DNA from: Arthrobacter crystallopoietes
GTDB lineage: Bacteria > Actinomycetota > Actinomycetes > Actinomycetales > Micrococcaceae
Length of the DNA stretch: 64,000 nt
Reading direction: 5' to 3'
Assembly: GCF_002849715.1 (NCBI RefSeq)
Contig: NZ_CP018863.1
Coordinates: 2,604,001 to 2,668,000, forward strand
Within the stretch, counting starts at the first letter, position 1, and each line of letters begins with the position of its first letter. Shown here one piece after another: positions 7,745 to 38,624 of the stretch. The notes below the pieces were generated by a model. The model saw only the letters and a program-made list of their open reading frames with translations. It had not been told where the DNA came from and made no database searches. Position numbers and translations under genes: made by a program.

Positions 7745-7750
7745 GGGGTG

Positions 7751-9345: not shown

Positions 9346-9373
9346 CGAATCGGGCTGCAGCAGCGGGAGGCGG

Positions 9374-10217: not shown

Positions 10218-10233
10218 TTAAGGTTATTTGTAA
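10206..10233 (-). promoter_or_regulatory. Promoter of the SDR-TRAP-aldolase operon (predicted)
   Basis: On the minus strand TTACAA (10228-10233) and TACAGT (10206-10211) are separated by 16 bases and lie about 100 bp upstream of the GTG start at 10102. The -10 element lies inside the palindrome at 10199-10217. Confidence 0.45.
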
Positions 10234-10326
10234 CCCCTGTCACATAATCGTTACGTAGGGGGCCAACCGGAGTCAACGTTTGCGGGCCCATGCGGTTTCC
10301 TGGCACGGGCGGCGCGAAGCGGGCAG

Positions 10327-10989: not shown

Positions 10990-11017
10990 CCATACCTCCC
11001 AATCATGCGTCACGGTT

Positions 11018-11046
11018 CCGTGTTCGACGACTCTAACCCAACACGG
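11018..11046. promoter_or_regulatory. Inverted repeat upstream of the gntR gene
   Basis: CCGTGTT and AACACGG, 7-bp arms 15 bases apart, lie 29-57 bp upstream of the chosen GntR start at 10989. The position fits an autoregulatory operator or promoter element, but it differs from the palindrome at 10199, so this remains tentative. Confidence 0.3.
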
Positions 11047-11111
11047 CATCCATAGTTTGCACGATAGTGAAGGCCCTTATCTGCAAGGTACGGGAAGTGC
11101 CGGTTGTTGGG

Positions 11112-11987: not shown

Positions 11988-11994
11988 GCGTTCC

Positions 11995-17836: not shown

Positions 17837-19021
17837 TCAGTTCTCCTTGAGCCAGGCCCGGACGACTTCGTCATGTTCGCCGAGTTGGGGCGGGGCGGCG
17901 GTGCGCGGCTGCAGCGGGGGAGTCCAGGTGGCAGGGTGGCGGACCTGGCGGCCCACCGCAGCGCCGTCGGGGGCATGAACCTCTATGGTCGGGTTTAGGC
18001 CCAGTGACTCGGCGAACTGGAGTCCGTCGTCGATCCCGGCCACGTGGCCGGCCGGTACACCGGCGCTGTTGAGCTTGTCCTGCCAGATCTGTGCTCCGGC
18101 GATCGACAGGGCCGCCTCCAGGATCGTGACCAGTTCCGCGCGGTGGGCCACACGGGCGCTGTTGGTGGCGAACCGCTCGTCGTCGGCCAGCCCGGGGGAA
18201 CCGATCACGGCCGCGAGCTTCCGGAACTGCCCGTCGTTGCCGCACGCCACTGCCAGCGGCCCGTCCTCGCACTGGAGCAGCTGGTAGGGAACGATGGACG
18301 GGTGCCCGTTGCCCATCCGGCCGGGGACCTTGCCCGCCCCAAGGTACGCCTGGGCCTGGTTGGCCAGCGCGCCCTGAAGGCTGGAGAGCAGGTTCAGCTC
18401 CAGATGCGCCCCGCGCCCCGTGGCGGCCCTGGCATTCAGTGCCGCGAGCACGCTGATGGTGGTGTCCTTGGCCGTGAGTACGTCCACCAGGGCAACGCCG
18501 GCCTTCATCGGGCCGCCGTCCGCCTCGCCGGTGATGCTCATGAGCCCGCCGAGCGCCTGGACAATGAAGTCGTAGCCAAGCAGATCCGCGCCGCCGCTGC
18601 TGCCGAAACCAGTGATGGAAGCGTAGATCAGCCCCGGGTTTTCGCGGCTCAGGTCTTCATAGCCGAGCCCGAGTTTGTCCATTCCTCCGGGCTTGAAGTT
18701 CTCCACGAGGACGTCGGCCCGGGCGGCGAGCTTGCGCGCCAGCTCGAGGTCGCCGTCGTCCGTGAGGTCGAGGCAGACGGACTCCTTGTTCCGGTTCACG
18801 CTCTCGAAGTATGTCGCTCCCGTGGCCGAGTACGGGGGACCCCACTTGCGGGTGTCGTCGCCGGCCCCGGGCCGCTCTACCTTGATCACCCGGGCGCCGA
18901 GGTCGGCCAGGGTCATGGTGGCCAGCGGGCCGGCGAGGACGCGGGAGAAGTCCGCGACGACGATCCCCTCAAGGGGCAAAGTGCCGGATGTAGCGGGGTC
19001 GGGGGAGCCGGTGGTAATCAT
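17837..19021 (-). CDS. Class III (CaiB/BaiF) CoA-transferase, glutarate CoA-transferase candidate
   Basis: A 394-residue family III CoA-transferase. The N-terminal signature VVADFSRVLAGP is at 21-32, VLVENFKPG at 104-112, and the catalytic Asp is Asp180 in VALVDV. Family members related to SUGCT transfer CoA between succinyl-CoA and dicarboxylates such as glutarate. Here it would supply the glutaryl-CoA needed by the nearby GcdH, filling the missing activation step. It lies 56 bp downstream of the APC permease gene, in the same orientation. The acceptor acid is inferred from context only. Confidence 0.85.
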   Translation of the reverse strand: MITTGSPDPATSGTLPLEGIVVADFSRVLAGPLATMTLADLGARVIKVERPGAGDDTRKWGPPYSATGATYFESVNRNKESVCLDLTDDGDLELARKLAARADVLVENFKPGGMDKLGLGYEDLSRENPGLIYASITGFGSSGGADLLGYDFIVQALGGLMSITGEADGGPMKAGVALVDVLTAKDTTISVLAALNARAATGRGAHLELNLLSSLQGALANQAQAYLGAGKVPGRMGNGHPSIVPYQLLQCEDGPLAVACGNDGQFRKLAAVIGSPGLADDERFATNSARVAHRAELVTILEAALSIAGAQIWQDKLNSAGVPAGHVAGIDDGLQFAESLGLNPTIEVHAPDGAAVGRQVRHPATWTPPLQPRTAAPPQLGEHDEVVRAWLKEN

Positions 19022-20635: not shown

Positions 20636-20642
20636 TTTGCCC

Positions 20643-21533
20643 ATGCAGGACGCGCAGGTTCCTCCTGATTGTGCGGGCCGGCTGGACGGGGCGGACGCGG
20701 AGAGCCTCGCGGCGGAGGCCATTCTGGCGCGCCTGCAGGGGTTGTCGCCGCTACTGGGCCGGGACACGGACGGCGACCACATCGAACCCAAGTCCCCGTT
20801 GTTCCTGCTTGATGAGCGGTTCGCCCCCTCCTACAGTGTCAGCCGCATAATCCGGCAGTCGCTCTCTGCCGTGGCGGACAACGCCAACGCGCTGCGGCGG
20901 CTGGTGTTTGTCGAAGATCCCGACGGCCCTGACTATTACCGGCAGAACACGCATGCGCCGTACTCGCTCGTGCGCACCATCATCGAATGCGCGACGACGG
21001 TCCTTTGGGCGCTGCTGCCCGAAGACGGGCGCGAACGCTCCCGCCGCACGCTGGTGCTCATCGCCCGGGAGGTCTTCAACGCGTCATCCTTCTGGGATGC
21101 CTACCTGGAAGAGTTCCGTCCCGGCGAGCATGCGCCTGCCGTGGAGTACTTCGACGGACTGCGCCAAGCGGTCAATGATGCGGCGCAGTCGATGGGGCTC
21201 CCGCCGGTCTTCAGCCGGAAAGCGAGCGGCAGTTGGGGCTATGCCACGAAGAACCGCACGCAGACGGCCATCCTGAAGGACTTGCGCGCCGACGGCGATG
21301 TGCCGGCCGAGCTGATCTTTGTCTGGCAGTTTTGCAGCGGATACTCCCACGGACTGGAGTGGGCCGCTTCCATTGGAAACAGCTATCCCGACCCCGGCCG
21401 TGCACCTGGCCCGGAGCAGCTCCCCGCCGGGAGCATGGAGCAGCTCCGCCGAATCTGCGATGCCGCCTTCGACCTCGTTCCCCGCGCCTGGGGAGCCTAC
21501 GATCTGAGCCGCCGCGCCTGGCCCTTGCTCTGA
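20643..21533 (+). CDS. Hypothetical protein
   Basis: A 296-residue soluble protein with no signal peptide or membrane segment and no family I can name. It contains alternating helix-like stretches (for example SLVRTIIECATTVLWALLPE near 105-125) and a Trp-rich C-terminal part (LIFVWQFCSGYSHGLEW near 225-241) with possible His and Glu active residues. The ATG at 20643 is preferred over an in-frame TTG six bases earlier because of the TAGGAT-N7-ATG leaderless arrangement. It is divergent from the APC permease gene and shares the repeat boxes, so it may belong to the same regulon. Confidence 0.75.
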   Translation: MQDAQVPPDCAGRLDGADAESLAAEAILARLQGLSPLLGRDTDGDHIEPKSPLFLLDERFAPSYSVSRIIRQSLSAVADNANALRRLVFVEDPDGPDYYRQNTHAPYSLVRTIIECATTVLWALLPEDGRERSRRTLVLIAREVFNASSFWDAYLEEFRPGEHAPAVEYFDGLRQAVNDAAQSMGLPPVFSRKASGSWGYATKNRTQTAILKDLRADGDVPAELIFVWQFCSGYSHGLEWAASIGNSYPDPGRAPGPEQLPAGSMEQLRRICDAAFDLVPRAWGAYDLSRRAWPLL

Positions 21534-21847: not shown

Positions 21848-23362
21848 ATGTCTGCCGAAATGACGAAGCCCGCTGGGGAGGCCGGCATCGATGAAGATGC
21901 CGCGCACCTCGCCAGCCTTGGCTATTCGTACGATCAGCAATTCAAGCGCGAAATGACGTTCTGGGGCAACGTGTCCCTGGGCTTCACCTATTTGTCCCCT
22001 GTTGTCGGTATCTATTCATTGTTCGCGGCCTCGCTCGGCATCGCCGGACCGCCCATGTTCTGGTCGCTGATTATTGTCGGCGTCGGCCAGTTGCTGGTCG
22101 CCACAGTCTTCGGCGAAGTCGTTTCCAACTACCCGGTGGCCGGCGGCGTGTACCCGTGGTCCCGCCGGCTTTGGGGCCGCAAATGGGGCTGGATGAACGG
22201 CTGGGTGTACCTGTGCGCCCTGCTGGCTACCATCGCCAGCGTTGCCTATGGCGCCGGGCCCTTCCTTAGCTCACTGCTGGGGATGGAGAGCAGCGTCAAC
22301 TCCGTGATCATGGCCGCTCTGGCCGTCATCCTGCTGGCCACCGTGCTGAATCTCGGCGGCACCAAAGTCTTGAACAAGGTGGCCATGCTCGGCCTGCTCG
22401 CCGAACTGGGTGGCGCTCTGGTGGTCGGCATCTGGCTGATGGTAGCGGCCCGCGAACACGATCTGGGCGTCCTGTTCCAGAGCTTCGGGGCAGGCGAAGG
22501 CAGCAACTACTTCATCGCCTTTGCCGCGGCCGGCCTCATCGGCATCTACCAGTACTACGGCTTCGAGGCCTGCGGCGACGTCGCCGAAGAGGTCCCGAAC
22601 CCCGGGCGCACCATCCCCAAGGCCATGCGCATGACCATCTACATCGGTGGCTTCGCGGCGATGTTCGTCTGCCTGTCCCTGATCCTCGCGGTCCCCGATT
22701 TCGGCGCAGTGATCAGCGGCGCCGACCCCGATCCGGTGGGCAACGTGCTGCTCTCGGCCTTCGGACCGGTCGGCTTCAAGGTAGTGCTCGCCGTCGTACT
22801 CATCTCCTTTGTCTCCTGCGTCCTGAGCCTGCAGGCTGCTTCCTCCCGCCTGGCGTACTCGATGGCCCGCGACGGTATCCTTCCGGCCAGCAAACTGCTC
22901 AGCAAGTTCAGCGAATCCCGCCACGTTCCGCCGTATGCCCTGCTGCTGGCCGGCCTGGTTCCGGCACTGATCGTGATCGGCTCCAAGGTCTCCGAGGATG
23001 CCCTGATCACCATCATTTCCTTCGCCGCCATGGGTATGTACATGGGCTTCCAGATGGTGGTGCTCGCCGCGCTGCGTGCCCGGCTCAAGGGCTGGAAGCC
23101 GCGCGGCGCCTTCCAGCTGGGCGCCTGGGGCACTCCGGTCTACGTGGCCGCACTGGCCTGGGGCGTGCTCGGCATGGTGAACATGGCTTGGCCGCGGACC
23201 CCGGAGGCCGGCTGGTTCTCCAACTACATCGTGCTGATCTCGGCGGTCGGCGTCGTCGTAATCGGCCTGGTCTACATGGCGTGGAAGAAGCCCTACCTCA
23301 AGGGTGACGCGCCCTTCGGGGATGCCGTCCCCTCCGCGCCGGCACGTTCCCTCAAGCCCTAA
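21848..23362 (+). CDS. APC family amino acid/polyamine permease
   Basis: A 504-residue inner-membrane transporter with about twelve helices. After a hydrophilic N-terminus (about 1-37) TM1 carries VSLGFTYLSPVVGIYS, and a middle loop contains GFEACGDVAEEVPNPGRTIPKA, a strong APC/ACT family motif. The ATG at 21848 is fixed by AGAAGGAGAG immediately upstream. It leads an eight-gene rightward operon with a P450 system, a glutamine-synthetase-like ligase and gamma-glutamyl hydrolases, so the imported substrate is probably an amine. The upstream region carries a promoter and tandem CRP-like sites. Confidence 0.88.
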   Translation: MSAEMTKPAGEAGIDEDAAHLASLGYSYDQQFKREMTFWGNVSLGFTYLSPVVGIYSLFAASLGIAGPPMFWSLIIVGVGQLLVATVFGEVVSNYPVAGGVYPWSRRLWGRKWGWMNGWVYLCALLATIASVAYGAGPFLSSLLGMESSVNSVIMAALAVILLATVLNLGGTKVLNKVAMLGLLAELGGALVVGIWLMVAAREHDLGVLFQSFGAGEGSNYFIAFAAAGLIGIYQYYGFEACGDVAEEVPNPGRTIPKAMRMTIYIGGFAAMFVCLSLILAVPDFGAVISGADPDPVGNVLLSAFGPVGFKVVLAVVLISFVSCVLSLQAASSRLAYSMARDGILPASKLLSKFSESRHVPPYALLLAGLVPALIVIGSKVSEDALITIISFAAMGMYMGFQMVVLAALRARLKGWKPRGAFQLGAWGTPVYVAALAWGVLGMVNMAWPRTPEAGWFSNYIVLISAVGVVVIGLVYMAWKKPYLKGDAPFGDAVPSAPARSLKP

Positions 23363-23417
23363 CGCGGTTGCCGCGCCCTTCAGTTCCATCAGCAAAGAAA
23401 GAAACAGGTTCCACATC

Positions 23418-24617
23418 ATGAGTACGCCTACCGTCCAGGTTCCCTACCTGAACATCTCGGATCCATCGTTCGCCATGCAGTCCGAAGAGCTGCGCGCGGC
23501 CCGGGAGCAGAGCTGGTACGCACGGACCAACTATGGCATCGCCGTGCTGCGGTATGACGAGGTCAGCAAGCTGCTCAAGAGCCCCAAGCTCTCGCAGGGC
23601 AGCGCCAAGTGGCCGGCGCACAACGGCGTCCACGGCGGGCTCTTCTATGACTGGTGGACCAAGAACCTGCTGGTACTGGAGGGCGAGGACCACCACCGGA
23701 TCCGGCGCCTGCTCAACCCGGCCTTCTCGCCCCGGCTGATCAAGGACCTGGTGCCGCGCTTCCAGGCCCTGGCGAACGAGCTGATCGACGCCTTCATCGA
23801 CAAGGGTGAATGCGAGTTCATCCGGGACTTTGCCGAACCGTATGCCACGCGGGTGTTGACCATCCTGCTGGGCATTCCGGAAAGCGAATGGCCGACGATT
23901 GCCCGGCTGGCCTCGACCGTAGGACTGGCACTGGGCGTGACCTTCAAGCAGGACCTGGCGAAGGTGGACGCCGCCGTCGCCGAGCTCTACGAATACGCCG
24001 AGGAGCTGATCAAGGACCGCCAGGCCAATCCGGGCGAAGACTTCGTCAGCCGCCTGGTACTGGCCAACCGCGACGGCGACCGGCTCAGCGACGAGGAGCT
24101 GCGCAACGCACTGGTGCTGCTGATCTTCGGCGGCATGGACACCACGCGCAACCAGCTCGGGCTGGCCATGCAGTCCTTCATGCACAACCCGGAGCAGTGG
24201 GAACTGCTGGCCCAATGTCCGGACCTGGGCGGCAAGGCCGTGGAGGAAGTCATGCGTATCAACCCCACGGTCACCTGGGTGACACGGGAGGCAGTCGAGG
24301 ACTTCACCTACCAGGACCTGTTCATCGAAAAGGGCACCACCGTCCACCTGTTCACGCAGTCATCGGGCACCGACCCGAAGGCTTTCCCGAACCCGGAGAT
24401 GGACCTGCTCGGCGAGCACGCTCCGCACTACGGATTCGGCGGCGGCGTGCACCACTGCCTGGGGCACTTTGTGGCGCGCGCGGACATGAGCGAGGCGTTG
24501 CCGCTGCTGGCCAGCCGCATGGCCCAGCCGCACCTGGCCGGCGGGGACGAGTGGCTGCCGGACTCGGGCAACACCGGTCCGATCCGCCTGCCCATCGGCT
24601 TCACCAAGCGGTCCTAG
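23418..24617 (+). CDS. Cytochrome P450
   Basis: A 399-residue soluble bacterial class I P450. I-helix oxygen-activation motif GGMDTTR at about 238-244, K-helix ExxR at 277-280, and the heme loop FGGGVHHCLG with the thiolate ligand Cys347. The start is the Met with normal family length, 55 bp after the permease stop. Ferredoxin and ferredoxin reductase genes follow directly, so the electron-transfer chain is complete. The neighbouring glutamine-synthetase-like and gamma-glutamyl hydrolase genes recall mycobacterial morpholine/piperidine/pyrrolidine gene clusters, where the P450 hydroxylates a carbon next to the nitrogen; that substrate class is inferred. Confidence 0.93.
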   Translation: MSTPTVQVPYLNISDPSFAMQSEELRAAREQSWYARTNYGIAVLRYDEVSKLLKSPKLSQGSAKWPAHNGVHGGLFYDWWTKNLLVLEGEDHHRIRRLLNPAFSPRLIKDLVPRFQALANELIDAFIDKGECEFIRDFAEPYATRVLTILLGIPESEWPTIARLASTVGLALGVTFKQDLAKVDAAVAELYEYAEELIKDRQANPGEDFVSRLVLANRDGDRLSDEELRNALVLLIFGGMDTTRNQLGLAMQSFMHNPEQWELLAQCPDLGGKAVEEVMRINPTVTWVTREAVEDFTYQDLFIEKGTTVHLFTQSSGTDPKAFPNPEMDLLGEHAPHYGFGGGVHHCLGHFVARADMSEALPLLASRMAQPHLAGGDEWLPDSGNTGPIRLPIGFTKRS

Positions 24618-24659
24618 CGGCCCTGAAAACCTGCAGACATCTTAGGAAGGACAAATCTG

Positions 24660-24851
24660 ATGAAGACCATCGACGTAGACCGCAGCCTCTGCGACAACCA
24701 CGGCCAGTGCGCCATCGCCGCGCCGGATGTGTTCCGGATGAACGCCGACGGCGAGCTCGAGTACGAGGCAACTTTCGACGACGGACTGCTGGACGAGGTG
24801 GAGGAAGCCATCGACGTCTGCCCGGTCCAGGCGATCTTCCTCAAGGACTGA
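24660..24851 (+). CDS. [3Fe-4S] ferredoxin partner of the P450
   Basis: A 63-residue acidic ferredoxin. Cys11, Cys17 and Cys54 are placed as CxxHxxC and CP, with His14 in the position of a fourth cysteine; this is the usual pattern of P450-linked [3Fe-4S] ferredoxins in actinobacteria. The gene starts 42 bp after the P450 stop with an AGGA ribosome-binding site, and the reductase gene starts one base after its stop codon. Role: carry single electrons from the reductase to the P450. Confidence 0.92.
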   Translation: MKTIDVDRSLCDNHGQCAIAAPDVFRMNADGELEYEATFDDGLLDEVEEAIDVCPVQAIFLKD

Positions 24852-24852
24852 C

Positions 24853-26106
24853 ATGAGCCGCAGAATTGTCATTGCAGGAGCCTCGATGGGAGGACTGCGC
24901 GCCGCCGAACAACTGCGCGCAGCTGGCTGGGACGAAGAGATCGTCGTCGTTGGCGATGAGATTCATCCGCCCTATAACCGGCCCCCGCTGTCCAAGGACC
25001 TGCTCGCCGCACCCGGTTCCCGCGAGGAGGCGCTTGCCGCGGTACAGCTTCGGCAACGCCGCACGGCCACCGATATCCGATGGCGGCTCGGCGCCGCGGT
25101 TACCGCGGCGGACCTCGCTGCCCGCACCCTGACGCTGGGCACTGGGGAAGAGCTGGCGTACGACGGATTGGTGATTGCCACCGGTCTCCGGCCACGGCGG
25201 GTGCCGGTTCCCGGACCCACTGCCGGCCGCCATGTGATCCGCCGTCTCGAGGACACTTTGGTGTTGCACGGCGAGCTCAAGCCCAAAACCAGGGTGGTGG
25301 TGATCGGCGCCGGTTTCATCGGCTGCGAGGCTGCCGCGACTGCGGCCGGTCTGGGCTGCCAGGTCTCGCTCATCGAGGGGACCGGCGGCCCGATGGAACG
25401 CCCGCTCGGCCGCGAACTGAGCGCCGGTATCCGCACCTTCCTGCAGACGCACGGCATTGATTGCGTTGCCGGCAAACGGGTCACCGAGTTCCTCGACGTG
25501 CCCGGAACCTACACGGAAGGCGCCGGGCGCTGTGCAGGTGTCCGGCTCGAGGACGGCACGGAAGTAGCCGCCGACGTCGTTATTGAGGCCGTCGGCTCGC
25601 TCCCGAACGTCGAGTGGCTGGCGGGAAACGGACTGGACCTCAGCGACGGCGTGCTTTGCAACGAACACCTCCAGGTGCTCGGAGCGGAACACGTGGTTGC
25701 GGTGGGCGACGTTGCCCGCTACCCGGACCGTCGCGCCGGAGGACCTGCCCGCCGCGTTGAACATTGGGCCACTCCGGCCGATACGGCCAAAATCGCCGCG
25801 CCGGCACTGGTGGCGAGGCTCAAGGGCGATGTTGTTCCCGAGCCGGCGGCACCGTTGCCGTCTTTCTGGACCGACATCTTCAAGACCCGCATCCAGGGGG
25901 TCGGCAGCCCCGCACTGGCCGACACCATCGAGGTTCTCGAAGGAAACCCGTCCCGCCCTTGGGAGGGAACCGCCCTGGCTTACTACCGCGACGGCCGGTT
26001 GATCGGCGCGGTGACCGCAGCCCTGCCGGCGGACCGCCAACTGCACTACCGCAAGCTCGTGAACGAATCCGGCATCCCCGCCGGCGCCAATCTGGCAGCC
26101 GTCTGA
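24853..26106 (+). CDS. NAD(P)H-dependent ferredoxin reductase (putidaredoxin reductase type)
   Basis: A 417-residue FAD enzyme. It has the first dinucleotide motif GASMGGLRAAE (about 8-18), the NPPLSK-like segment YNRPPLSKDLL, the second dinucleotide motif GAGFIGCEAA (about 156-165), and a C-terminal reductase domain (FWTDIFKTRIQGVG). Homologous enzymes pass electrons from NAD(P)H to [2Fe-2S] or [3Fe-4S] ferredoxins. Its tight spacing with the ferredoxin gene and the P450 gene indicates a dedicated three-component system. Confidence 0.9.
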   Translation: MSRRIVIAGASMGGLRAAEQLRAAGWDEEIVVVGDEIHPPYNRPPLSKDLLAAPGSREEALAAVQLRQRRTATDIRWRLGAAVTAADLAARTLTLGTGEELAYDGLVIATGLRPRRVPVPGPTAGRHVIRRLEDTLVLHGELKPKTRVVVIGAGFIGCEAAATAAGLGCQVSLIEGTGGPMERPLGRELSAGIRTFLQTHGIDCVAGKRVTEFLDVPGTYTEGAGRCAGVRLEDGTEVAADVVIEAVGSLPNVEWLAGNGLDLSDGVLCNEHLQVLGAEHVVAVGDVARYPDRRAGGPARRVEHWATPADTAKIAAPALVARLKGDVVPEPAAPLPSFWTDIFKTRIQGVGSPALADTIEVLEGNPSRPWEGTALAYYRDGRLIGAVTAALPADRQLHYRKLVNESGIPAGANLAAV

Positions 26107-26140
26107 CCGGCATCGCACACTGACGAGAAAGAAGACCATC

Positions 26141-27574
26141 ATGACACTCACCCCCGTGCGGCCCGATCTGGCCGCCATCGACCTGCAGCAATCCCTCAAC
26201 GACCGCGGTGCCTTCGCACGGCACCAGGAGCGCAACCTGCGTCCCGAAACCGTGCGCGAGCTCGGCCGCAAGATCGAGGAGGCCGGCGTCGAGTATGTGT
26301 ACTACGCGCTGCCGACCATCGGCTCCCGCATGGTGGCCAAAATGGTCCCGGCCAACCACTTCAAGCGCAACCTGGAAAAGGGCATCTGCTTCCACCGGAC
26401 GGCGCTGTCCGACTTGCAGAATGACCGCCACGGCAACCTGATCGGCGGCGGGATCGAGGCGCGTGAGTTCTGGGCACTACCGGAGCCCGATACATTCGTG
26501 GTGCTGCCGTGGGACACCTCGGTGGCGCGGATCTTCTGCACGGCCTACGAGCCCCCGCACCTGCCGGAGGTCGGCGGCCGCCTGCTCCCGATCGACACCC
26601 GCTCGCTGCTGATCCGCTCGCACGAGGCCTTCACCGCCGGCACCGGCTTCGAGGTCCGCTCCGGAACCGAACCCGAGATGACCTGGGAGGGCCCCGGCCT
26701 CGAAGTGGTCAAGAAGCCCGGCACCAGCCCGGCCTACCAGGTGGAGAACCTGGAGCGGATGCGTCCGATCTACAAGAAGCTGGTCACCTACGCCAAGGCC
26801 ATGGGCCTGGACATGATTGAGGGCGACTACGAAGACGACGGCCAGCTCGAGCTCAACTGGATGTACGACCGGGTGGAAAACACGGCCGACCGGCTGGTCA
26901 CCTACCGCCAGATCTGCAAGCAGGTGGCCCGCGAATTCGGCGTCACCGCCAGCTTCATGCCCAAGCCCTACAACGGCCAGATGGGCAACGGCTGCCACCA
27001 CAACCTGAGCCTCTGGGACGGCGACACCAACGTGATCGAGGACGACGGCAGGGTGGAACTGCACGTTTCCGAGACGGCTAAGCACGCCATCGGCGGCCTG
27101 CTCACGCACGCTCCCGGTTCGATGGCGGTCATGGCCAGCACCGTGAACTCCTACAAGCGGTTCTGGGACGCCGGCCAGTTCGCTCCCAGCACGGCGAACT
27201 GGGGCCTGGACAGCCGCGGCTGCCTGGTGCGCATCTCCTCCAACGGCCGGATGGAGTACCGGGTCCCGGACGCGGCAGTGAACCCGTACCTGTCCCATAC
27301 GCTGCTCATCGCCGCGATGGAGGACGGCCTGAACCGCCGGCTGGATCCCGGGATGCCCGACGACGGCGGTGCGGACGTTCCGGCCCTCGGCGGCCAGCTG
27401 CCGCTCACCCTGGGCGACGCGATCGACGCCTTCGTCTCCGACACCTACCTCACCTCGGCGCTGCCGGCGGACCTGGTATCGATCTACACGCAGCTGAAGC
27501 AGGAGGAATGGGCCCGCTACTGCGGCGCCATCACCGAATGGGACCGCGAGATGTACTGGGAGACCATTCCGTGA
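26141..27574 (+). CDS. Glutamine synthetase-like gamma-glutamyl-amine ligase
   Basis: A 477-residue member of the glutamine synthetase superfamily. Visible are the metal-site segment RSGTEPEM (about 172-179), the ATP/glutamate loop GQMGNGCHHNLSLWDG (about 282-297) and a C-terminal RISSNGRMEYRVPDAAVNPY. The family joins glutamate to ammonia or amines at the cost of ATP. It differs from housekeeping GlnA, and two gamma-glutamyl hydrolases follow in the operon, so it should make a gamma-glutamylated amine or amino acid, as PuuA or IpuC do. Start ATG at 26141, 34 bp after the reductase. Confidence 0.85.
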   Translation: MTLTPVRPDLAAIDLQQSLNDRGAFARHQERNLRPETVRELGRKIEEAGVEYVYYALPTIGSRMVAKMVPANHFKRNLEKGICFHRTALSDLQNDRHGNLIGGGIEAREFWALPEPDTFVVLPWDTSVARIFCTAYEPPHLPEVGGRLLPIDTRSLLIRSHEAFTAGTGFEVRSGTEPEMTWEGPGLEVVKKPGTSPAYQVENLERMRPIYKKLVTYAKAMGLDMIEGDYEDDGQLELNWMYDRVENTADRLVTYRQICKQVAREFGVTASFMPKPYNGQMGNGCHHNLSLWDGDTNVIEDDGRVELHVSETAKHAIGGLLTHAPGSMAVMASTVNSYKRFWDAGQFAPSTANWGLDSRGCLVRISSNGRMEYRVPDAAVNPYLSHTLLIAAMEDGLNRRLDPGMPDDGGADVPALGGQLPLTLGDAIDAFVSDTYLTSALPADLVSIYTQLKQEEWARYCGAITEWDREMYWETIP

Positions 27575-28299
27575 GCCGCGTCGAGACTCTTTCAGCGGGA
27601 ATCCTGCGCCTGGCCTGCATCGACTCCGAGGCGCCGCCGCTGTTCAACCTCGTTGACGACGCCGGCAACCGCCGCGGGTACGAGCCCGAGGCGGCCGAGC
27701 TGGTGGCTTCGGTGCTCGGCCTGCGCATCGAATGGGCCTACCTCGACTGGGACGACATGCTGCCCGCCGTCCGCGACCACCGCGTGGATGCGGTCTGGTG
27801 CGGCCAAGGCATCATCCCGGAACGGCAGGAAGTGGTGAACTTTACCGACCCGTACGCGGTGTTCGACGAGACCGTGCTGGTGCGCAAGGGCGATCCTGCC
27901 CGTTCGCCGGAGGACCTGGCCGGCTACAAAGTGGCGGCCATCGAAGGCAGCGCCAACATGAGACTGGCCGTCACCTTCGAGGGAGCCGAACCGGTTGCCT
28001 TCACCGGGGCGGACGTGTTCGGCGACATGCTGGCCGCCCTGCGCAACGGTGAGGTGGATGCCATGGTGGACGACGACGTCGTGACCGTGCCGCTTGGCGA
28101 AGACCCGGCGTACGATGTCGCTTTTACGCACCCCACGGGTAACCGGTGGGGGATCGGTGTGGCCAAGGACAACCCCTTCCTGCTGGCCGAGCTCAACACG
28201 GCACTGGCAACGGTGGTGGCAGACGGGCGGCTGGAGCGGATCTGGACCAAGTGGATGCCGCACCTGCCGTACCCGCTGGCGGCGGAGGTGGCCGTATGA
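27571..28299 (+). CDS. Family 3 solute-binding-protein domain without signal peptide
   Basis: A 242-residue protein with the full periplasmic type II binding fold of amino acid ABC binding proteins: RRGYEPEAAELVASVLG (about 31-47), the middle YKVAAIEGS and the late VDAMVDDD. It begins with GTG overlapping the stop of the ligase gene (GTGA), leaving no room for a signal peptide or lipobox, and no permease or ATPase gene is nearby. It may be a cytoplasmic ligand-binding protein or have become an enzyme of cyclohexadienyl dehydratase type. Function not determinable from sequence. Confidence 0.8.
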   Translation: MSRVETLSAGILRLACIDSEAPPLFNLVDDAGNRRGYEPEAAELVASVLGLRIEWAYLDWDDMLPAVRDHRVDAVWCGQGIIPERQEVVNFTDPYAVFDETVLVRKGDPARSPEDLAGYKVAAIEGSANMRLAVTFEGAEPVAFTGADVFGDMLAALRNGEVDAMVDDDVVTVPLGEDPAYDVAFTHPTGNRWGIGVAKDNPFLLAELNTALATVVADGRLERIWTKWMPHLPYPLAAEVAV

Positions 28300-29030
28300 G
28301 CCGCCCCTTGATCGGCGTTCCGGGCATGTGGTCCAACTCCGTCCACGGCCTGCGCTTCGATGGCGTTGCCGTGGCGGCCAAGGTGCTGCGCTGCATCGTT
28401 GCTGCCGGCGGGGAACCTGTCATCATGTTCCCGGGAAGCGGTGACAGCGCCGCCGAGCAGGTTGCCCGGTTCGACGGCGTGCTGCTTCCCGGCGGCGCCG
28501 ACGTGGCACCCGAGCTCTACGGCGCAGAACCGGACGAACATTACTGGCCCACCGACTACTCCGGCCAGGACGCGTATGAATCGGCCATCATGGCCGCCTG
28601 CCTTGAAGCGGGAGTCCCGCTGCTGGCGATCTGCCGCGGACTGCAGTTGCTCAACGTATCCCGGGGCGGGACTCTGCTGCAGCATCTGGAACCGGGAACC
28701 GTGCAGCATAAGGATGCGATACATCCGGTTGCAGTTTCGGAAGGGTCATTGCTGGCAACCGTGGTCGGCAGCGGGCAGGTGGATGTCTCCTCGTACCACC
28801 ACCAGGCCGTGGGCGCACTCGGTGACGGGCTGGAAGTGACGGCGACCGCAGCGGACGGCGTGGTGGAAGCGCTCGAAGTGCCGGGAGCTTCCATGCTCGC
28901 CGTCCAATGGCACCCGGAAGACACCGCAGAGACCAATCCCGCCGACCACGCGCTGTTCGTCTGGATTGTCGACGCAGCCAGGCAGCGCCGTGACGCGGCT
29001 GCCGCCGCAGAACTGGCAGGTGCCCGGTGA
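28296..29030 (+). CDS. Gamma-glutamyl-gamma-aminobutyrate hydrolase (PuuD) family, copy 1
   Basis: A 244-residue class I glutamine amidotransferase-fold hydrolase. The nucleophile Cys113 lies in AICRGLQ, with His206 and Glu208 in VQWHPED. Family C26 peptidases such as PuuD release the product from a gamma-glutamyl carrier. The ATG overlaps the preceding stop by four bases. The gene follows a glutamine-synthetase-like ligase, which fits a glutamylate, oxidise, deglutamylate sequence. Confidence 0.87.
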   Translation: MSRPLIGVPGMWSNSVHGLRFDGVAVAAKVLRCIVAAGGEPVIMFPGSGDSAAEQVARFDGVLLPGGADVAPELYGAEPDEHYWPTDYSGQDAYESAIMAACLEAGVPLLAICRGLQLLNVSRGGTLLQHLEPGTVQHKDAIHPVAVSEGSLLATVVGSGQVDVSSYHHQAVGALGDGLEVTATAADGVVEALEVPGASMLAVQWHPEDTAETNPADHALFVWIVDAARQRRDAAAAAELAGAR

Positions 29031-29854
29031 GTGGGCTGCGGGTCAACCCCGCGGACGTGGTTCCCGCCGCCTTCGAGCACCTGCCAGCAGACGCACCGCG
29101 CGTCGCCGTCGTCGTTTCACTGACGTTCCTGGGGATGACCCAGCAGACGCTGGAGCTGATGGAGCGGTTTACGCGTGTTGCGTTTGAAACGCTGCTGGCA
29201 GCTGGAGCCCGGGCCGAGCTGGTGGACAGTGCGGCGGAACACCTGACTCCCGAAGCGGAGCTGGCCAAGTACGACGGAGTCCTCTTCCTGGGTGGCGGCG
29301 ACGTGGACGCATCGCTGTATGGCCACACCGGACCGGTGCCGAACTCCTACGGAGTCGATCTGCGGGCGGACCAGTACTGTGTGGACCTGATCCACGGTGT
29401 GCTGGAGCGGGACCAGCCGTTGCTCGCCATCTGCCGGGGGTCGCAGTTGCTCAACGTAGCCTGCGGCGGCACGCTGATCCCTGATCTGGATCCCTGGCAT
29501 CTGCACCGCGGGGGACCGGGACAGCCGATGTTCCTGGACGAGAAAGTGAACCTGGCTCCGGGCTCGAAGGTGGCGGCCATCCTTGGCCGTCCCACGGTGA
29601 GCGTGCGCTCGGGGCATCATCAGGCGGTGGGAACCGTGGCAGCTGAACTGAAGGTTGCCGCGCTGGCGCAGGACGGTGTGGTTGAAGGTACGGAGCATCC
29701 GGGCAAGACCTGGGTGGTCGGCGTGCAATGGCATCCGGAGGATTCGGACGGGGACGCGAATGATCGATCCCTGTTGTTCGAAGAGTTCGTGCGCCAGAGC
29801 AGGCTGAATCCGGCGGCTGCGCCCGACAGGCCGCAGGAGCCGGCCAACGCCTGA
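29027..29854 (+). CDS. Gamma-glutamyl-gamma-aminobutyrate hydrolase (PuuD) family, copy 2
   Basis: A 275-residue paralogue of the preceding gene, with Cys136 in AICRGSQ and His236 in VQWHPED. It differs in having an N-terminal extension of about 20 residues and a longer linker with WHLHRGGPG. Starts with GTG overlapping the previous stop (GTGA). Two adjacent, clearly diverged hydrolases imply two different gamma-glutamyl substrates or a heteromer. Last gene of the operon, followed at once by a strong terminator. Confidence 0.85.
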   Translation: MSGLRVNPADVVPAAFEHLPADAPRVAVVVSLTFLGMTQQTLELMERFTRVAFETLLAAGARAELVDSAAEHLTPEAELAKYDGVLFLGGGDVDASLYGHTGPVPNSYGVDLRADQYCVDLIHGVLERDQPLLAICRGSQLLNVACGGTLIPDLDPWHLHRGGPGQPMFLDEKVNLAPGSKVAAILGRPTVSVRSGHHQAVGTVAAELKVAALAQDGVVEGTEHPGKTWVVGVQWHPEDSDGDANDRSLLFEEFVRQSRLNPAAAPDRPQEPANA

Positions 29855-29857: not shown

Positions 29858-29893
29858 GTTGATCTGCGCGGTTATCCGGCCGCGCAGATCAAC
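29858..29893. terminator. Bidirectional terminator with 14-bp perfect stem
   Basis: GTTGATCTGCGCGG (29858-29871) pairs perfectly with 29880-29893 around an 8-base loop. It separates the rightward amine operon from the leftward Cache gene, and the stem includes the last codons of the Cache gene. Confidence 0.8.
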
Positions 29894-30588
29894 TGCAGGT
29901 TCAGGTTGGGGACGTTCAGCGGTATGAAGCAGAATCCTTCCGGCGCTGCCTTGATCCGTTCCCCCACAATGAAGCGTCCCGAGTTTCCGAGGATCACGCG
30001 GTTCTGGCCATTCAGGATGGCGGCATCTCCAGGAATCCGGCGGACGATCGGAATGAACTTGTTTTCGATGTCGCGGATCCGGATGTCGCAGCCGGTTACA
30101 CCGATGAAGGTTCCATGGACATAGGTCGGCACGGCATGAGTCATGATGTATTCGTCGAAACCGAGATAGTCAACATAGGGTCCGGCAACGGACTGCCTGC
30201 CGGTCTTGGCTGCGATGGAAAACCAGGGGAGCTGCTCATAGTCGTAGAACCGTTCGCCCTCGGGAGCTAAATCGAAATCCAGCTTTTCGATATTCCCGGA
30301 GTCAGTTCTGAACCACCATTCCAATACTCCCTCCGCGTCTTTGATTGCCGAGATCGAAAAGATTACTCCGGCCCCGACAACAATGTCGTGGGAATTGAGG
30401 AATGCGCTGGATATTTCGCGTAATCCGGTAATGTCTTTTGGCGATATTTTTATGCCTGCGGGAATTTTTCCTTCGAGCTGTTTTTCCACCGTGTGAGCGG
30501 TGTCGTATAGGTCCTGGTACAGCTCATTGAGCCATGCCTCGATGGCCGTCGCACTGCTGATGGCGCGGGGTGAGGCGGGCGCGGTCAT
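29872..30588 (-). CDS. Cytoplasmic Cache-domain sensor-like protein
   Basis: A 238-residue protein resembling a dCache ligand-binding domain: GVIFSISAI with WWFR, then YDYEQLPWFSIAAKTGRQSV (about 116-135) and GPYVDYLGFDEYIMTHAVPTY. The last part (GVTGCDIRIRDIENKF) is typical of Cache sensors. Cache domains are normally extracytoplasmic parts of membrane receptors, but here there is neither a signal peptide nor a transmembrane helix. The start overlaps the stop of the gntR gene by four bases, so the two are made together. It may be a soluble ligand sensor working with the regulator. Confidence 0.8.
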   Translation of the reverse strand: MTAPASPRAISSATAIEAWLNELYQDLYDTAHTVEKQLEGKIPAGIKISPKDITGLREISSAFLNSHDIVVGAGVIFSISAIKDAEGVLEWWFRTDSGNIEKLDFDLAPEGERFYDYEQLPWFSIAAKTGRQSVAGPYVDYLGFDEYIMTHAVPTYVHGTFIGVTGCDIRIRDIENKFIPIVRRIPGDAAILNGQNRVILGNSGRFIVGERIKAAPEGFCFIPLNVPNLNLQLICAAG

Positions 30589-31346
30589 GAGATCTCCTGT
30601 TCATCGCCTGCATGGGCAAGCGTGAGCTTGGTGTCAATGAGGTGGTAGGTGTTCCGCCGGATATGTTCGACAACCAGGCGCTGCGCGTCGTCTGGTTCGT
30701 CCGCCCTGATCGCATCGACGATACGCACATGCTCACGGGCGGCCGTGGCCGGGTCGAAAACACCGGCGATGGGACTCCACAGAAGCTGGCCGACCTCGGA
30801 TTGCAGCCGGATCTCCAGGCTGGTGAGCCGCGGAGACTGGGCGACCACGGCCAGTTCAATGTGGAAGCGGCTGTCTGATCTCGCCTGAGTTTCCGGGGAA
30901 TCGGCTCCGGCCAGTGCCTTCGCCAGCTGTTCCAGCCTGTCCAGATCCTTGGGATGCGCGCGATCGCACGCCAGACGGGCCGCTGCTGCGGCCACAGCGG
31001 TTTGCTCGTCGCCGAGATCCCGTAGATCGGCGATGGAAGTATCCCGGAGATATTTCCGCAACTGCTGTTCCTGGGCAGCCGGCGACTTCACCACGAACGT
31101 TCCGCCGTTTCGGCCCCGGCGTGTTTCAACTACGCCCCGCTCCCTTAGTTCAGCGAGGGCTTCACGCAGGGTCGCTCCCGCAACGCCGAACATGTCGGAA
31201 AGCTCGGACTCTACGGGCAACCGTTCGCCGACGCGGAGCATGCCCAGGGCAATTGCCGTGGATATCCTCTGGACTATGGCCTCGGACCGTTCCTTTTCAG
31301 GCAGGGAGCGATAAATCTGGGACTGCAGCGCCGGCGGTGATGCCAC
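30585..31346 (-). CDS. GntR family regulator, FCD subfamily
   Basis: A 253-residue regulator. The winged helix domain spans about residues 20-90 (ESELSDMFGVAGATLREALA), followed by an FCD helical domain. GTG at 31346 is chosen because AGAAGGGAG lies upstream; an earlier in-frame GTG at 31400 lacks such a site. It is co-translated with the Cache protein and divergent from an aldehyde dehydrogenase gene, with a 20-bp inverted repeat (31456-31475) between them. It probably controls that gene in response to an acid or amine ligand. Confidence 0.87.
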   Translation of the reverse strand: MASPPALQSQIYRSLPEKERSEAIVQRISTAIALGMLRVGERLPVESELSDMFGVAGATLREALAELRERGVVETRRGRNGGTFVVKSPAAQEQQLRKYLRDTSIADLRDLGDEQTAVAAAAARLACDRAHPKDLDRLEQLAKALAGADSPETQARSDSRFHIELAVVAQSPRLTSLEIRLQSEVGQLLWSPIAGVFDPATAAREHVRIVDAIRADEPDDAQRLVVEHIRRNTYHLIDTKLTLAHAGDEQEIS

Positions 31347-31455
31347 GATTCTCTCCCTTCTGCGGAGCGACAACTGAATGTCGGGTTTCCGGCGAATCAC
31401 TTATGGGGCATTCTACTTTATCGCCGCCGGCGTATATCAGCCATTCGGCAGCGAA

Positions 31456-31475
31456 AGACATATCAAGAAATGTCT
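31456..31475. promoter_or_regulatory. Inverted-repeat operator candidate for the GntR regulator
   Basis: AGACAT and ATGTCT flank an 8-base AT-rich spacer in the gap between gntR (30585-31346) and the aldehyde dehydrogenase gene. The location is 46-65 bp upstream of the aldehyde dehydrogenase ATG. Confidence 0.5.
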
Positions 31476-31507
31476 CGTAATTGCTGGATGTGAACTCTTC
31501 CTGCCGA

Positions 31508-31513
31508 TATTTT
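31508..31513 (+). promoter_or_regulatory. -10 element placing transcription at the aldehyde dehydrogenase ATG
   Basis: TATTTT followed by seven bases and the ATG at 31521, with no Shine-Dalgarno sequence, suggests a leaderless transcript. A clear -35 element is not seen (the best is CTGGAT, 31484-31489). Confidence 0.35.
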
Positions 31514-31520
31514 TGAAATC

Positions 31521-32900
31521 ATGACTTACTACAAGAGTATAAATCCTGCTACCGGCGAAACGCTGCAGGAATTCGCTGCTGCCGCCGATGAAGAAATTTC
31601 CGGGTCACTCAAGAAAGCGCAGACCGCCTACGACTCATGGCGGCAGACGGCTGTTCCGGAGCGAACTGCAGTGCTGCTGCGCGTAGCCGAACTCTACCGG
31701 GACCGCCGGGATGAGCTGGCCAGAATCATCAGCCTGGAAATGGGCAAGCCGGTCAGCCAGGCCAAGGGCGAAGTAGGACTGGTCGCGGACATTTACGAGT
31801 ACTACGCAACCGAAGGTCCGGCGTTCATGGAAGATGAGCTGTTGACCGTCCGCGGCGGCGGAGAGGCAGTTGTCCGTTCGGCCCCGGTCGGAGTGCTGCT
31901 TGGCATCATGCCGTGGAACTATCCCTACTACCAGGTGGCCCGGTTTGCCGCTCCGAACCTGATGCTGGGAAACACGATCCTGCTCAAGCACGCGCGCAAC
32001 TGCCCGCAGTCGGCGATCGTGATGGAAGAAATCTTCCGTGACGCCGGGTTGCTCGACGGCGCTTATGTCAACATTTTTGCGACCAACGAGCAGGTCGCTG
32101 AAATCATCGCTGATCCCCGCGTCCAAGGCGTCTCCCTGACGGGCAGCGAGCGTGCAGGGTCCGCAGTAGCGGAGGTGGCTGGCCGTCACCTTAAGAAGTA
32201 TGTGCTCGAGCTGGGCGGAAGCGATCCGTTCATTGTGCTGGACTCCGAGGACCTGGACGCAACCGTCAAGGCTGCGGTCGGCGGGCGCATGAGCAACGCC
32301 GGCCAGGCATGCACTGCCTCCAAGCGGTTCATCATCGTCGAGGACCTCTATGAAGAATTCGTGGATAAATTCACCGAGCGGATGGCACGGATCGAGCCGG
32401 GTGACCCACTGAAGCCCGAAACGCGCTTCGGTCCCCTGTCGTCGCAGACTGCCGCCGAAGAACTGATCGAACAGGTTCAGGATGCGGTGGGCAAGGGGGC
32501 TGTACTGCTCACGGGCGGCAAACTTGTCGAAGGACCGGGAGCGTACGTGGAACCGACGGTCCTCACCGGCGTGAAGCCCGGCATGCGCGCCTACTCGGAA
32601 GAGCTCTTTGGCCCCGCCGCGGTCGTCTACAAGGTTCGGGATGCCGAGGAAGCCATCGAACTGGCGAACGGGTCGCCCTATGGTCTCGGTGGAGCCGTCT
32701 TCAGCGTTGATGTAGAGAGGGCCAAGGAAGTTGCCGACCGGTTGGACACCGGCATGGTTTTTATCAATTCTGTGGCAGATTCACAGCCTGATTTGCCTTT
32801 CGGCGGCGTCAAACGCTCCGGCGTTGGCCGCGAGCTGGCGAAGTATGGCATGGCCGAATTCGTGAATAAGAAGCTCATCCGCGTGCCTGCTGGTAGTTAA
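31521..32900 (+). CDS. Aldehyde dehydrogenase, succinate-semialdehyde dehydrogenase (GabD) type
   Basis: A 459-residue NAD(P) aldehyde dehydrogenase. PWNYP (131-135), Glu230 in LELGGSDP and the nucleophile Cys264 in GQACTASKRF are visible; overall length and motifs resemble GabD1/Sad succinate semialdehyde dehydrogenases. It is divergent from the GntR/Cache pair and next to the gamma-glutamylation operon, so oxidation of an amino-aldehyde or gamma-glutamyl-aldehyde is plausible. No ribosome-binding site precedes the ATG. The gene ends at a strong terminator. Confidence 0.87.
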   Translation: MTYYKSINPATGETLQEFAAAADEEISGSLKKAQTAYDSWRQTAVPERTAVLLRVAELYRDRRDELARIISLEMGKPVSQAKGEVGLVADIYEYYATEGPAFMEDELLTVRGGGEAVVRSAPVGVLLGIMPWNYPYYQVARFAAPNLMLGNTILLKHARNCPQSAIVMEEIFRDAGLLDGAYVNIFATNEQVAEIIADPRVQGVSLTGSERAGSAVAEVAGRHLKKYVLELGGSDPFIVLDSEDLDATVKAAVGGRMSNAGQACTASKRFIIVEDLYEEFVDKFTERMARIEPGDPLKPETRFGPLSSQTAAEELIEQVQDAVGKGAVLLTGGKLVEGPGAYVEPTVLTGVKPGMRAYSEELFGPAAVVYKVRDAEEAIELANGSPYGLGGAVFSVDVERAKEVADRLDTGMVFINSVADSQPDLPFGGVKRSGVGRELAKYGMAEFVNKKLIRVPAGS

Positions 32901-32967: not shown

Positions 32968-34302
32968 TTAGACCTGCGACTGCAGCGTATTATCACGAAT
33001 CCGCAGCCGCAAACCAGCATAAATGGAGGCAGCGAGCAGCGGCGTGACCAGCGTTCCCACAGTCGCTCCCCAGGCCAATCCGGACTGGATCAGGCCGATA
33101 CCGATAGCTGCTGAAACACACCATGCGGCGACGCCTGCGGCGTTCACCCTCGGGAACGAACTGTCGGGCAGGCGGCCAGGTTCAGCGGGTCTGCCGGAGC
33201 GCCGGTCCAGAGCAATGTGCGTCAGGGCTATCGCCACCCAGCCTGTGACCAGGGCGCCCTGCCAAGACAATGCGACGAGCAGGTACTGGACAACGGGCAG
33301 CAGCATCAGCAGGAAGATGATGACCGCGCCGAGTAGGTTCCAGATAATTCCCGGCAGCTTCACTTTGAATGCCCGCTCGCCGAACTCCCGCAGGTTCGAG
33401 ATGCCCAGAGCATAGTTCGCGGTGTTGATCCGCGTTTGCGAAACAAAGACCACCAGCAGGCCGAACAAGCCCATGAGGGAAACCAGACCACCGGCTACAC
33501 CGGTTTCGGTGGCCTCCAGCCCCGGAATGGTGAAGGTCAGGAAGATTCCGATCAGGGCGTTGGCGCCGAAGGCCAGCGCATAGAACAGCCAGCCGAAGGT
33601 GTACCGCTTGTGGAACTTCTCGTCCTGCGGCTTGCCCAGCGCGGCGAAGTCCATGGTGTACATCATCAGGATCCAGACCCCCATGAAGGCGGCGTAGGTG
33701 CCGAGCCAGCCCGGCCCGCCGTCGGCGAACCGGAGTGCAGGCACCGAGTGAGTGAGCCAGTTGTCGGAGAAGCCGTGGGCTGTTCCGGCCCAGATGACCG
33801 CGGCAATGAGACCGCCCCAGTACACGGGCAGGAGCCAGCCGTTGATTTTGTCCAGCCAGCGCTGGATTCCGCCGGCCACCAGGGGCAGGGTGTAGAGGAC
33901 GACGACGGCGTACCAGAGTGCCATTGGTCCGCCGAACTGCGCTTGGAACGCGAATGCGAGGATCGCGCCTTCGAAGACTGCGTAGTAGATCGCCGTGGCG
34001 GCAAAGATGATGGTGGCCAGCAGCGCGCCCGTACGGCCGAGGAGGCTTCGGGAGAACTGGGCGACGGTCAGGCCGTTGCGCAGCGCGTAGCCGGCCAGCA
34101 CTCGGTTGATCATTCCGTAGCTGAGGATGGTCAGGCCCAAGCCGATCAAGGCATCTCGGGTCCCGTAGGCCTGGGCGAGGGCGGCGCCGATGTAGACGAA
34201 GAACATTGCGCTGACCAGCCCGTACCAGGCCATGGTGAGTGAGCCGCGGCTCATGCGCGTTGAATTGCTGGTTTCCTGAGGTAGTGCTTCGGTTGATGAC
34301 AC
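32968..34302 (-). CDS. NCS1 family nucleobase/hydantoin/allantoin-type permease
   Basis: A 444-residue permease with about twelve helices. The order of segments (GMINRVLAGYALRNGLTVAQFSR in TM3, WLDKINGWLLPVYWGG in TM5, and FVSQTRINTANYALGISNL near residue 290) fits cytosine/purine/allantoin permeases. GTG start with GGGAG upstream. It lies downstream of hyuAB in the same direction but separated by a 13-bp-stem hairpin, so expression may be attenuated relative to hyuAB. Import of a hydantoin, oxoproline or allantoin-like compound is inferred. Confidence 0.82.
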   Translation of the reverse strand: MSSTEALPQETSNSTRMSRGSLTMAWYGLVSAMFFVYIGAALAQAYGTRDALIGLGLTILSYGMINRVLAGYALRNGLTVAQFSRSLLGRTGALLATIIFAATAIYYAVFEGAILAFAFQAQFGGPMALWYAVVVLYTLPLVAGGIQRWLDKINGWLLPVYWGGLIAAVIWAGTAHGFSDNWLTHSVPALRFADGGPGWLGTYAAFMGVWILMMYTMDFAALGKPQDEKFHKRYTFGWLFYALAFGANALIGIFLTFTIPGLEATETGVAGGLVSLMGLFGLLVVFVSQTRINTANYALGISNLREFGERAFKVKLPGIIWNLLGAVIIFLLMLLPVVQYLLVALSWQGALVTGWVAIALTHIALDRRSGRPAEPGRLPDSSFPRVNAAGVAAWCVSAAIGIGLIQSGLAWGATVGTLVTPLLAASIYAGLRLRIRDNTLQSQV

Positions 34303-38452: not shown

Positions 38453-38495
38453 CTTGTGATTCCTCCAAGGAAGTGGTTTTGCGTAGCCACTACGA

Positions 38496-38525
38496 TCCAG
38501 TGTGACCCAGCTCTCTGTCACTGGA
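38496..38525. promoter_or_regulatory. Inverted repeat in the hyuA-pucR divergent region
   Basis: TCCAGTG and CACTGGA, 7-bp arms 16 bases apart, between the divergent starts. Possible regulator site. Confidence 0.4.
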
Positions 38526-38528
38526 GGA

Positions 38529-38568
38529 ATTGAAATACAATGGAAAGCACGATTGTAGTTTTTACAAT
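38529..38568. promoter_or_regulatory. Two ATTG...CAAT palindromes upstream of pucR2
   Basis: ATTGAAATACAAT (38529-38541) and ATTGTA-GTTTT-TACAAT (38552-38568) are AT-rich palindromes within 100 bp upstream of the PucR gene starting at 38625, and stand out against the GC-rich background. Confidence 0.45.
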
Positions 38569-38624
38569 GACCGCGCCAACGCCTTTTATTCGGCACCAAC
38601 GGCAAACTTTCAAGGAAGCATTCG

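Follow-up and report, generated by a model that had tools for sequence, protein, structure and literature searches.

A widespread actinobacterial P450 and gamma-glutamylation gene module in Arthrobacter crystallopoietes, probably serving catabolism of cyclic secondary amines

Morpholine, piperidine and similar ring amines are industrial chemicals. Published accounts of the mycobacterial pip and mor clusters reportedly cover a cytochrome P450, its electron partners, a regulator and part of a glutamine synthetase (GS)-like open reading frame (ORF), but not a solute-binding protein (SBP) or hydrolases. In the Puu putrescine route, PuuA, PuuC and PuuD act as ligase, aldehyde dehydrogenase (ALDH) and C26 hydrolase on gamma-glutamyl compounds, and putrescine is oxidised by an oxidase. 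According to the available excerpts, pipA is induced by piperidine, MorA together with its partners oxidises morpholine (PMC9477822), and the Ipu pathway follows the order glutamylation, oxidation, hydrolysis (PMC6776027). The logic of glutamyl masking is already known, for isopropylamine as well as for aniline. Here we analysed a 64,000-nucleotide stretch of the A. crystallopoietes genome (5.03 Mb, 3 contigs; the stretch is hereafter the window), in which a P450, a GS-like ligase, an SBP without a signal peptide and two C26 hydrolases are encoded side by side. Judging from sequence comparisons, this locus is probably a module of PipA/MorA type for the breakdown of cyclic secondary amines, with a piperidine-like (C5) compound as the most likely substrate in this organism.

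The core of the locus is a set of eight genes on the + strand (positions 21848–29854 of the window). Their coordinates, orientation and families had been proposed in an earlier sequence-only reading of this DNA and were borne out by the ORFs and by Pfam, whose families are given in brackets below together with three genes that follow.

21848–23362 (+): APC-family permease (AA_permease_2), candidate amine importer
23418–24617 (+): cytochrome P450 (p450), PipA/MorA type by sequence identity and tree
24660–24851 (+): three-Cys, [3Fe-4S]-type ferredoxin (Fer4_15/Fer4_13)
24853–26106 (+): NAD(P)H-ferredoxin reductase (Pyr_redox_2), matching the NCBIfam dioxygenase ferredoxin reductases below cut-off
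26141–27574 (+): GS-like ligase (Gln-synt_C; PDB 9qur; alignment A1), candidate gamma-glutamyl-amine or -aminoaldehyde synthetase
27571–28299 (+): signal-less SBP (SBP_bac_3), candidate cytoplasmic binder of a gamma-glutamyl intermediate by its short N-terminus, AF2 model and fold
28296–29030 (+): predicted gamma-glutamyl hydrolase 1, C26a (Peptidase_C26, PF07722), matching the Lin1909 and PuuD structures
29027–29854 (+): predicted gamma-glutamyl hydrolase 2, C26b (Peptidase_C26, PF07722), matching the same structures
29872–30588 (−): cache-type protein paired with the regulator, itself without an NCBIfam match
30585–31400 (−): GntR/FCD regulator (GntR-family NCBIfam match below cut-off), PipR-like by position and by what we take to be the family of PipR
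31521–32900 (+): aldehyde dehydrogenase that may act at the gamma-glutamyl-aminoaldehyde or semialdehyde step; best NCBIfam match succinic semialdehyde dehydrogenase at 518.6 bits (cut-off 730)

The eight genes are probably co-transcribed, because the gaps between them are short (permease to P450, 55 bp; P450 to ferredoxin, 42 bp; ferredoxin to reductase, 1 bp; reductase to GS, 34 bp) and the GS–SBP, SBP–C26a and C26a–C26b junctions are each 4-bp overlaps. Scans for sigma-70 promoters and terminators did no better on the window than on shuffled sequence, with terminator-like sites about as frequent as chance predicts (7 against 6.2 expected), and the search for an operator common to the operon and regulator promoters returned scattered 8-mers that we judged to be chance. 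By the recurrence of the cache-type, FCD/GntR and ALDH genes (29872–32900) beside it in other loci, we assign these three genes to the module, which on this basis extends past the eight genes to 32900. The names of the GS-like protein, the hydrolases and the reductase were kept at family level because they did not reach equivalog-level NCBIfam models.

The P450 is identical at 253 of 398 positions (63.6%) to P0136 of M. smegmatis, which we take to be PipA, and equally to P0159 (Q5EGS5). Both proteins are placed by the tree among P450s of module-bearing loci (e.g. L063 and L068), and these results uphold the comparison with mycobacterial clusters drawn in the sequence-only reading and place the P450 with the PipA/MorA-type enzymes; CYP151 is presumably the name of this P450 type. 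The ferredoxin sequence has three cysteines (CxxHxxC plus CP), a pattern typical of [3Fe-4S] ferredoxins. The window P450 has class I electron partners, a GS-like gene and a GntR-type regulator nearby, as expected of a PipA/MorA-type cluster.

To survey the module, named genomes were scanned with a GS alignment and the best 80 of at least 544 confirmed loci were compared; A. mangrovi and A. hankyongi provided the top GS loci among these 80. A locus counted as a module locus if its P450 exceeded 50% identity to that of the window (51 of the 80), and other genes were scored as present at E ≤1e-8 with query coverage of 40% or more (ferredoxin, E 1e-3). All 51 module loci have the GS gene, 50 the SBP, 47 the FCD regulator, 46 the cache-type protein, 45 the permease, 41 C26a, 39 C26b, 29 the ALDH, 26 the ferredoxin and 19 the reductase, with a different reductase family (cluster 10) in 12 loci. 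At 45% identity or more, relatives of the ALDH at 31521–32900 were found in 16 of the 51, against none of the 26 remaining loci, which have neither P450 nor SBP and served as controls. Three further loci (L030, L041, L057) are short contigs with the SBP and no P450 in view. The sole module locus lacking the SBP (L079) is one whose sequence stops 50 bases past the GS match. Cache-type counterparts include one in Pseudomonas sp. with Pfam PDC/cache matches and one in Gordonia annotated as cache domain-containing. At E ≤1e-80, the GS was present in each of the nine other congeneric genomes sampled; in the relatives sample, 14 of 99 genomes had it, the window's own included. The order GS, SBP, C26 recurs in 13 of 13 related loci and is beyond chance.

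Thirteen of the 51 module loci belong to Mycolicibacterium or Mycobacterium (L059, L062–L071, L073, L098) and carry the same P450, GS, SBP and C26 set as the window. By these comparisons the locus is a member of a module widespread among actinobacteria, not a new system, and we reject the idea that P450 oxidation and gamma-glutamylation are joined uniquely here. Combination of ligase, P450 and amidotransferase has moreover been described for isopropylamine in the available part of PMC6776027. What stands of the sequence-only reading is the P450 type, the resemblance to amine ligases and the 5-aminovalerate idea discussed below; the novelty of the combination does not.

Because the survey loci were seeded by GS, the link between P450 and SBP was also checked without this seed. 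These screens scored part of the candidates in each genome, and the related genomes among them do not count as independent. Among 317 genomes of the order, 11 had the P450 (E 1e-90) and nine the SBP (E 1e-40), all nine within the 11 and the window's own genome counted; among 296 genomes of the phylum, three had the P450 and four the SBP, with all three shared. In two of the order genomes (G395, G503) the two genes are on different contigs.

The best PDB match of the GS-like protein is the glutamate-methylamine ligase 9qur (198 bits), followed by the type III enzyme 7cql (191 bits), whereas entries named glutamine synthetase score at most 154.5 bits. Based on the best match, the protein looks like an amine ligase, as had been suggested; its PDB neighbours fit this assignment without proving it. 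Its scores against the equivalogs for gamma-glutamylputrescine synthetase PuuA (NF045547, 196.1 bits, cut-off 650) and type III glutamate-ammonia ligase (TIGR03105, 282.5 bits, cut-off 469.6) fall short. GS-like enzymes acting on organic amines are grouped together in the excerpted text of an eLife 2024 paper (PMC11335346). The GS beside PipA-like P450s of Gulosibacter was taken, in the available part of a 2022 paper, as serving ammonium assimilation (PMC9477822). An equivalent role here, in which the enzyme would mainly assimilate freed ammonium and the C26 proteins and SBP would be unrelated genes, is very improbable: GS, SBP and C26a overlap and remain together across genera, the best structural match is a methylamine ligase, and three further GS-family matches (E ≤0.001) are present in the genome.

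C26a and C26b score 183.8 and 143.8 bits against PF07722 and both keep the CRG nucleophile motif and WHPE, although neither reaches the PuuD equivalog cut-off of 266 (97.8 and 77.8 bits). The recurrence of two hydrolases may mean that two gamma-glutamyl compounds need cleavage. Class-I amidotransferases of another kind occur in Pseudomonas sp. L047 (two, inside the cluster) and in Bisbaumannia L046 (one, Pfam-confirmed); a hydrolase therefore persists, supplied by other proteins.

An operon upstream of the eight genes encodes a candidate set of four enzymes for a glutarate route, whose activities are predicted and whose four NCBIfam scores all lie below their cut-offs.

11995–13464 (−): aldehyde dehydrogenase, candidate glutarate semialdehyde dehydrogenase; copies 70–73% identical in four Mycolicibacterium module loci
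13507–14667 (−): predicted glutaryl-CoA dehydrogenase; PDB 3swo (549 bits) and 1siq (366 bits), both so named
14714–16144 (−): predicted 4-aminobutyrate/5-aminovalerate transaminase; NCBIfam PRK06058, 615 bits (cut-off 639)
17837–19021 (−; start codon chosen in this analysis): predicted CaiB-family CoA-transferase of succinate-glutarate type; NCBIfam NF052585, 351 bits (cut-off 750), and PDB 9br6, a succinate-hydroxymethylglutarate CoA-transferase, 287 bits

Among the fetched module loci, relatives at 45% identity or more were found for the transaminase in 9 of 51, the glutaryl-CoA dehydrogenase in 11, the CoA-transferase in 8 and this second ALDH in 4, and for each in none of the 26 controls, whose loci average 16.1 kb, compared with 19.8 kb for the module loci. 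Four Mycolicibacterium loci (L067, L068, L070, L098) have all four genes. The transaminase and CoA-transferase occur together in Arthrobacter L025, the CoA-transferase and dehydrogenase in Pseudoclavibacter L042 and in Streptomyces L050 and L053, and the other loci with glutarate genes are mostly mycobacterial. In another genus of the same family (L110), the module again has the ALDH (69%) beside it, along with the glutaryl-CoA dehydrogenase (85%), which is cut off by the edge of the locus. Because these genes recur beside it, a C5 product is favoured, with piperidine leading to 5-aminovalerate and then glutarate. The suggestion that the neighbouring operon could receive 5-aminovalerate is thereby strengthened, a glutarate route being encoded upstream and parts of it recurring at the module elsewhere.

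A cyclic-amine module with a non-C5 substrate, such as pyrrolidine (to GABA, 4-aminobutyrate), morpholine or a natural alkaloid-type amine, is unlikely but is the strongest competitor to the C5 assignment. The transaminase is of GABA type, the window P450 forms a clade apart from the mycobacterial one, and the available text of PMC9477822 links PipA to the use of both piperidine and pyrrolidine and MorA to that of morpholine. However, a glutaryl-CoA dehydrogenase and a glutarate-type CoA-transferase are expected for a C5 product, not for GABA, and both are near the module in several genera. The same genes bear on an Ipu-like route for an open-chain primary amine, in which the GS-like enzyme would form a gamma-glutamyl-alkylamide, the P450 would hydroxylate the alkyl group and a C26 hydrolase would free an amino alcohol. 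The enzyme classes are identical, and Arthrobacter aurescens TC1 has two clusters with permease, P450, ferredoxin, reductase, IpuC and a postulated amidotransferase step (excerpts of PMC6776027). Given the recurrent glutarate genes and the 63.6% identity of the P450 to its M. smegmatis relative, we regard this route as improbable.

For the preferred cyclic-amine module, the sequences show which genes and families are present, their conservation and their synteny; we infer the substrate, the reaction order, the activities and the SBP role. The permease would import the amine, and the P450, with ferredoxin and reductase, would hydroxylate the carbon adjoining the nitrogen (alpha). The GS-like ligase would attach glutamate, through its gamma-carboxyl, to the amine nitrogen either ahead of this hydroxylation or following it, and both orders would lead to the same ring-opened gamma-glutamyl-omega-aminoaldehyde, masked and unable to re-cyclise. 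An aldehyde dehydrogenase would oxidise the masked aldehyde, after which a C26 hydrolase would give back glutamate and free the omega-amino acid (5-aminovalerate from piperidine), to be converted by the upstream operon through glutarate semialdehyde and glutarate to glutaryl-CoA. The FCD regulator and cache-type protein probably sense an amine or an intermediate, and the cytoplasmic SBP probably holds a gamma-glutamyl intermediate at the free alpha-amino-acid end. A concrete pathway, with predicted intermediates traceable by mass spectrometry, is suggested by conservation of the ligase, the hydrolases and the genes of the glutarate route. A literature search lying outside most subscription journals found no published account assigning gamma-glutamylation to pip/mor clusters. 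It returned nothing relevant on a link to nortropine, and the passage available on Paracoccus sp. TOH, considered as a named amine degrader, mentions its PHB genes only.

The window SBP has 14 residues ahead of the first domain motif, which we judged by length to be too few for a signal peptide. In 120 listed homologues, which include A. crystallopoietes and A. deserti at 88–90% identity, the motif begins after 4–35 residues, and after fewer than ten in 67 of them. Pfam identified no ATP-binding cassette (ABC) transporter gene among the operon genes, so the protein lacks both marks of a secreted polar amino-acid ABC SBP, a signal peptide and partner ABC genes. Its AF2 model (pLDDT 91.1) has an amino-acid-binding-protein type fold. 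R85 and D168, which do not vary among the 39 proteins compared, align with the Arg and Asp of AncQR, which we take to hold the alpha-carboxylate and alpha-amino group of amino acids; the position of what we number as Ser72 of LAO is Gly or Ser in this family. Having kept the Arg and Asp, the SBP may bind a gamma-glutamyl intermediate. We rejected the possibility that it is a decayed transporter piece, as none of the 39 aligned proteins departs from its pocket residues and the gene keeps its place beside GS. Assignment as a cyclohexadienyl dehydratase is likewise unsupported: the general acid of that enzyme is Glu173 according to the available part of PMC7683729, and the site, mapped by our own column assignment through an alignment to CDT-Anc1, is V171, invariant in 39 of 39. 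One in-frame TAA was seen in each of four SBP matches (G302, G395, G436, G503). The fourth SBP of the phylum screen is an orphan (G206; L105, 10181–10870, 55% identical) with a HipA-like gene nearby and no GS, P450 or C26 match within the 19 kb fetched. In M. chlorophenolicum L063, a second SBP and C26 pair at the edge (from position 3; the other at 7265–12800) suggests two modules close by.

The presence of a signal-less SBP beside the ligase at 50 of the 51 loci was not anticipated, and the protein could give the cell a novel means of dealing with a reactive intermediate. We tentatively propose, as a possibility short of even likelihood, that a large family of signal-less, amino-acid-type cytoplasmic SBPs was recruited into gamma-glutamyl-masked amine catabolism as carrier, sensor or enzyme for gamma-glutamyl-aminoaldehydes, gripped by their glutamate head, and that the GS-like gene of piperidine/morpholine clusters makes this masked intermediate.

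Several observations weigh against a C5 cyclic-amine module built on glutamyl masking. The substrate of MorA is free morpholine in the available text of PMC9477822, so that glutamylation need not come first. In the tree, the window P450 belongs to a distinct clade (24 rows) drawn mainly from Micrococcaceae, Microbacteriaceae and Brevibacteriaceae and including two Streptomyces plasmid P450s; because this clade is apart from the mycobacterial one, the substrate may differ. NCBIfam equivalog cut-offs were unreached for the GS-like protein, the hydrolases and the ALDHs. A minority of loci have glutarate genes near the module, most of these loci being mycobacterial (8 of the 9 that have the transaminase), and such genes could function in the breakdown of lysine; when the identity threshold is relaxed to 30%, one of the 26 controls has the ALDHs too. 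Two of the 11 order genomes with the P450 (G507, G586) have no GS or SBP in the 19 kb around it, and the SBP is missing from all seven plasmid loci with a related P450 (at least 53% identity; seven of 10 plasmid records), of which four have P450 and GS close together and two, from Streptomyces, have no GS in view. The SBP is thus a steady part of the module, yet not of every P450–GS pair.

The two Streptomyces plasmids (L010, 9977–12649; L011, 9893–12648) carry the related P450 with ferredoxin and reductase within an ectoine-like cluster that also has an adenylating enzyme and a carrier protein, with no GS or SBP in view. In Gordonia plasmid pGKT2 (L005, 14995–20487), a related P450 and GS-like region, with FCD and cache genes upstream, immediately precedes an annotated reductase and second P450, presumably the RDX genes xplB and xplA. 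Elsewhere in the window, two genes at 34392–38866 (−) resemble those for the beta and alpha subunits of caprolactamase (340 and 509 bits, against cut-offs of 1000) and perhaps encode an ATP-dependent lactamase opening 2-piperidone to 5-aminovalerate; the pair is near the module in one of 51 loci (L026). Beside it are a permease (32968–34302, −; NCS1-like by reading, no NCBIfam match) and a PucR/PmfR-like regulator (38625–40205, +). A 298-aa ORF at 20637–21533 (+) has no Pfam or NCBIfam match and a relative in one of 51 module loci (L025, 60%), and a TAXI-family TRAP transporter solute-binding subunit is encoded at 7751–8764 (−; 266 bits, cut-off 84.35).

Compared with described systems, the locus is closest to the mycobacterial PipA/PipR and MorA clusters, with which it shares the P450 family, ferredoxin, reductase, GS-like gene and regulator, and differs in the clade of its P450. 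The Ipu pathway of Pseudomonas KIE171 and A. aurescens TC1 likewise has a GS-like ligase, a P450 with ferredoxin and reductase, an amidotransferase and a permease, all of which the window encodes together; however, it acts on an open-chain primary amine to give an amino alcohol, and a signal-less SBP goes unmentioned in the available text (PMC6776027). In the aniline (AtdA1) and naphthylamine (NpaA1) systems, a GS-like enzyme makes a gamma-glutamyl amide before oxygenation, and the aniline system also has an amidotransferase-like partner (excerpts of PMC11335346), whereas a Rieske dioxygenase and aromatic amines set both apart from the window. Relative to Puu, the window has a P450 instead of an oxidase, and its ligase and hydrolases score below the Puu equivalog cut-offs. 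The SBP shares its fold and conserved Arg and Asp with polar amino-acid ABC SBPs and with cyclohexadienyl dehydratase, but differs from the former in having no signal peptide and no ABC gene in its operon, and from the latter in having Val in place of the general acid Glu173.

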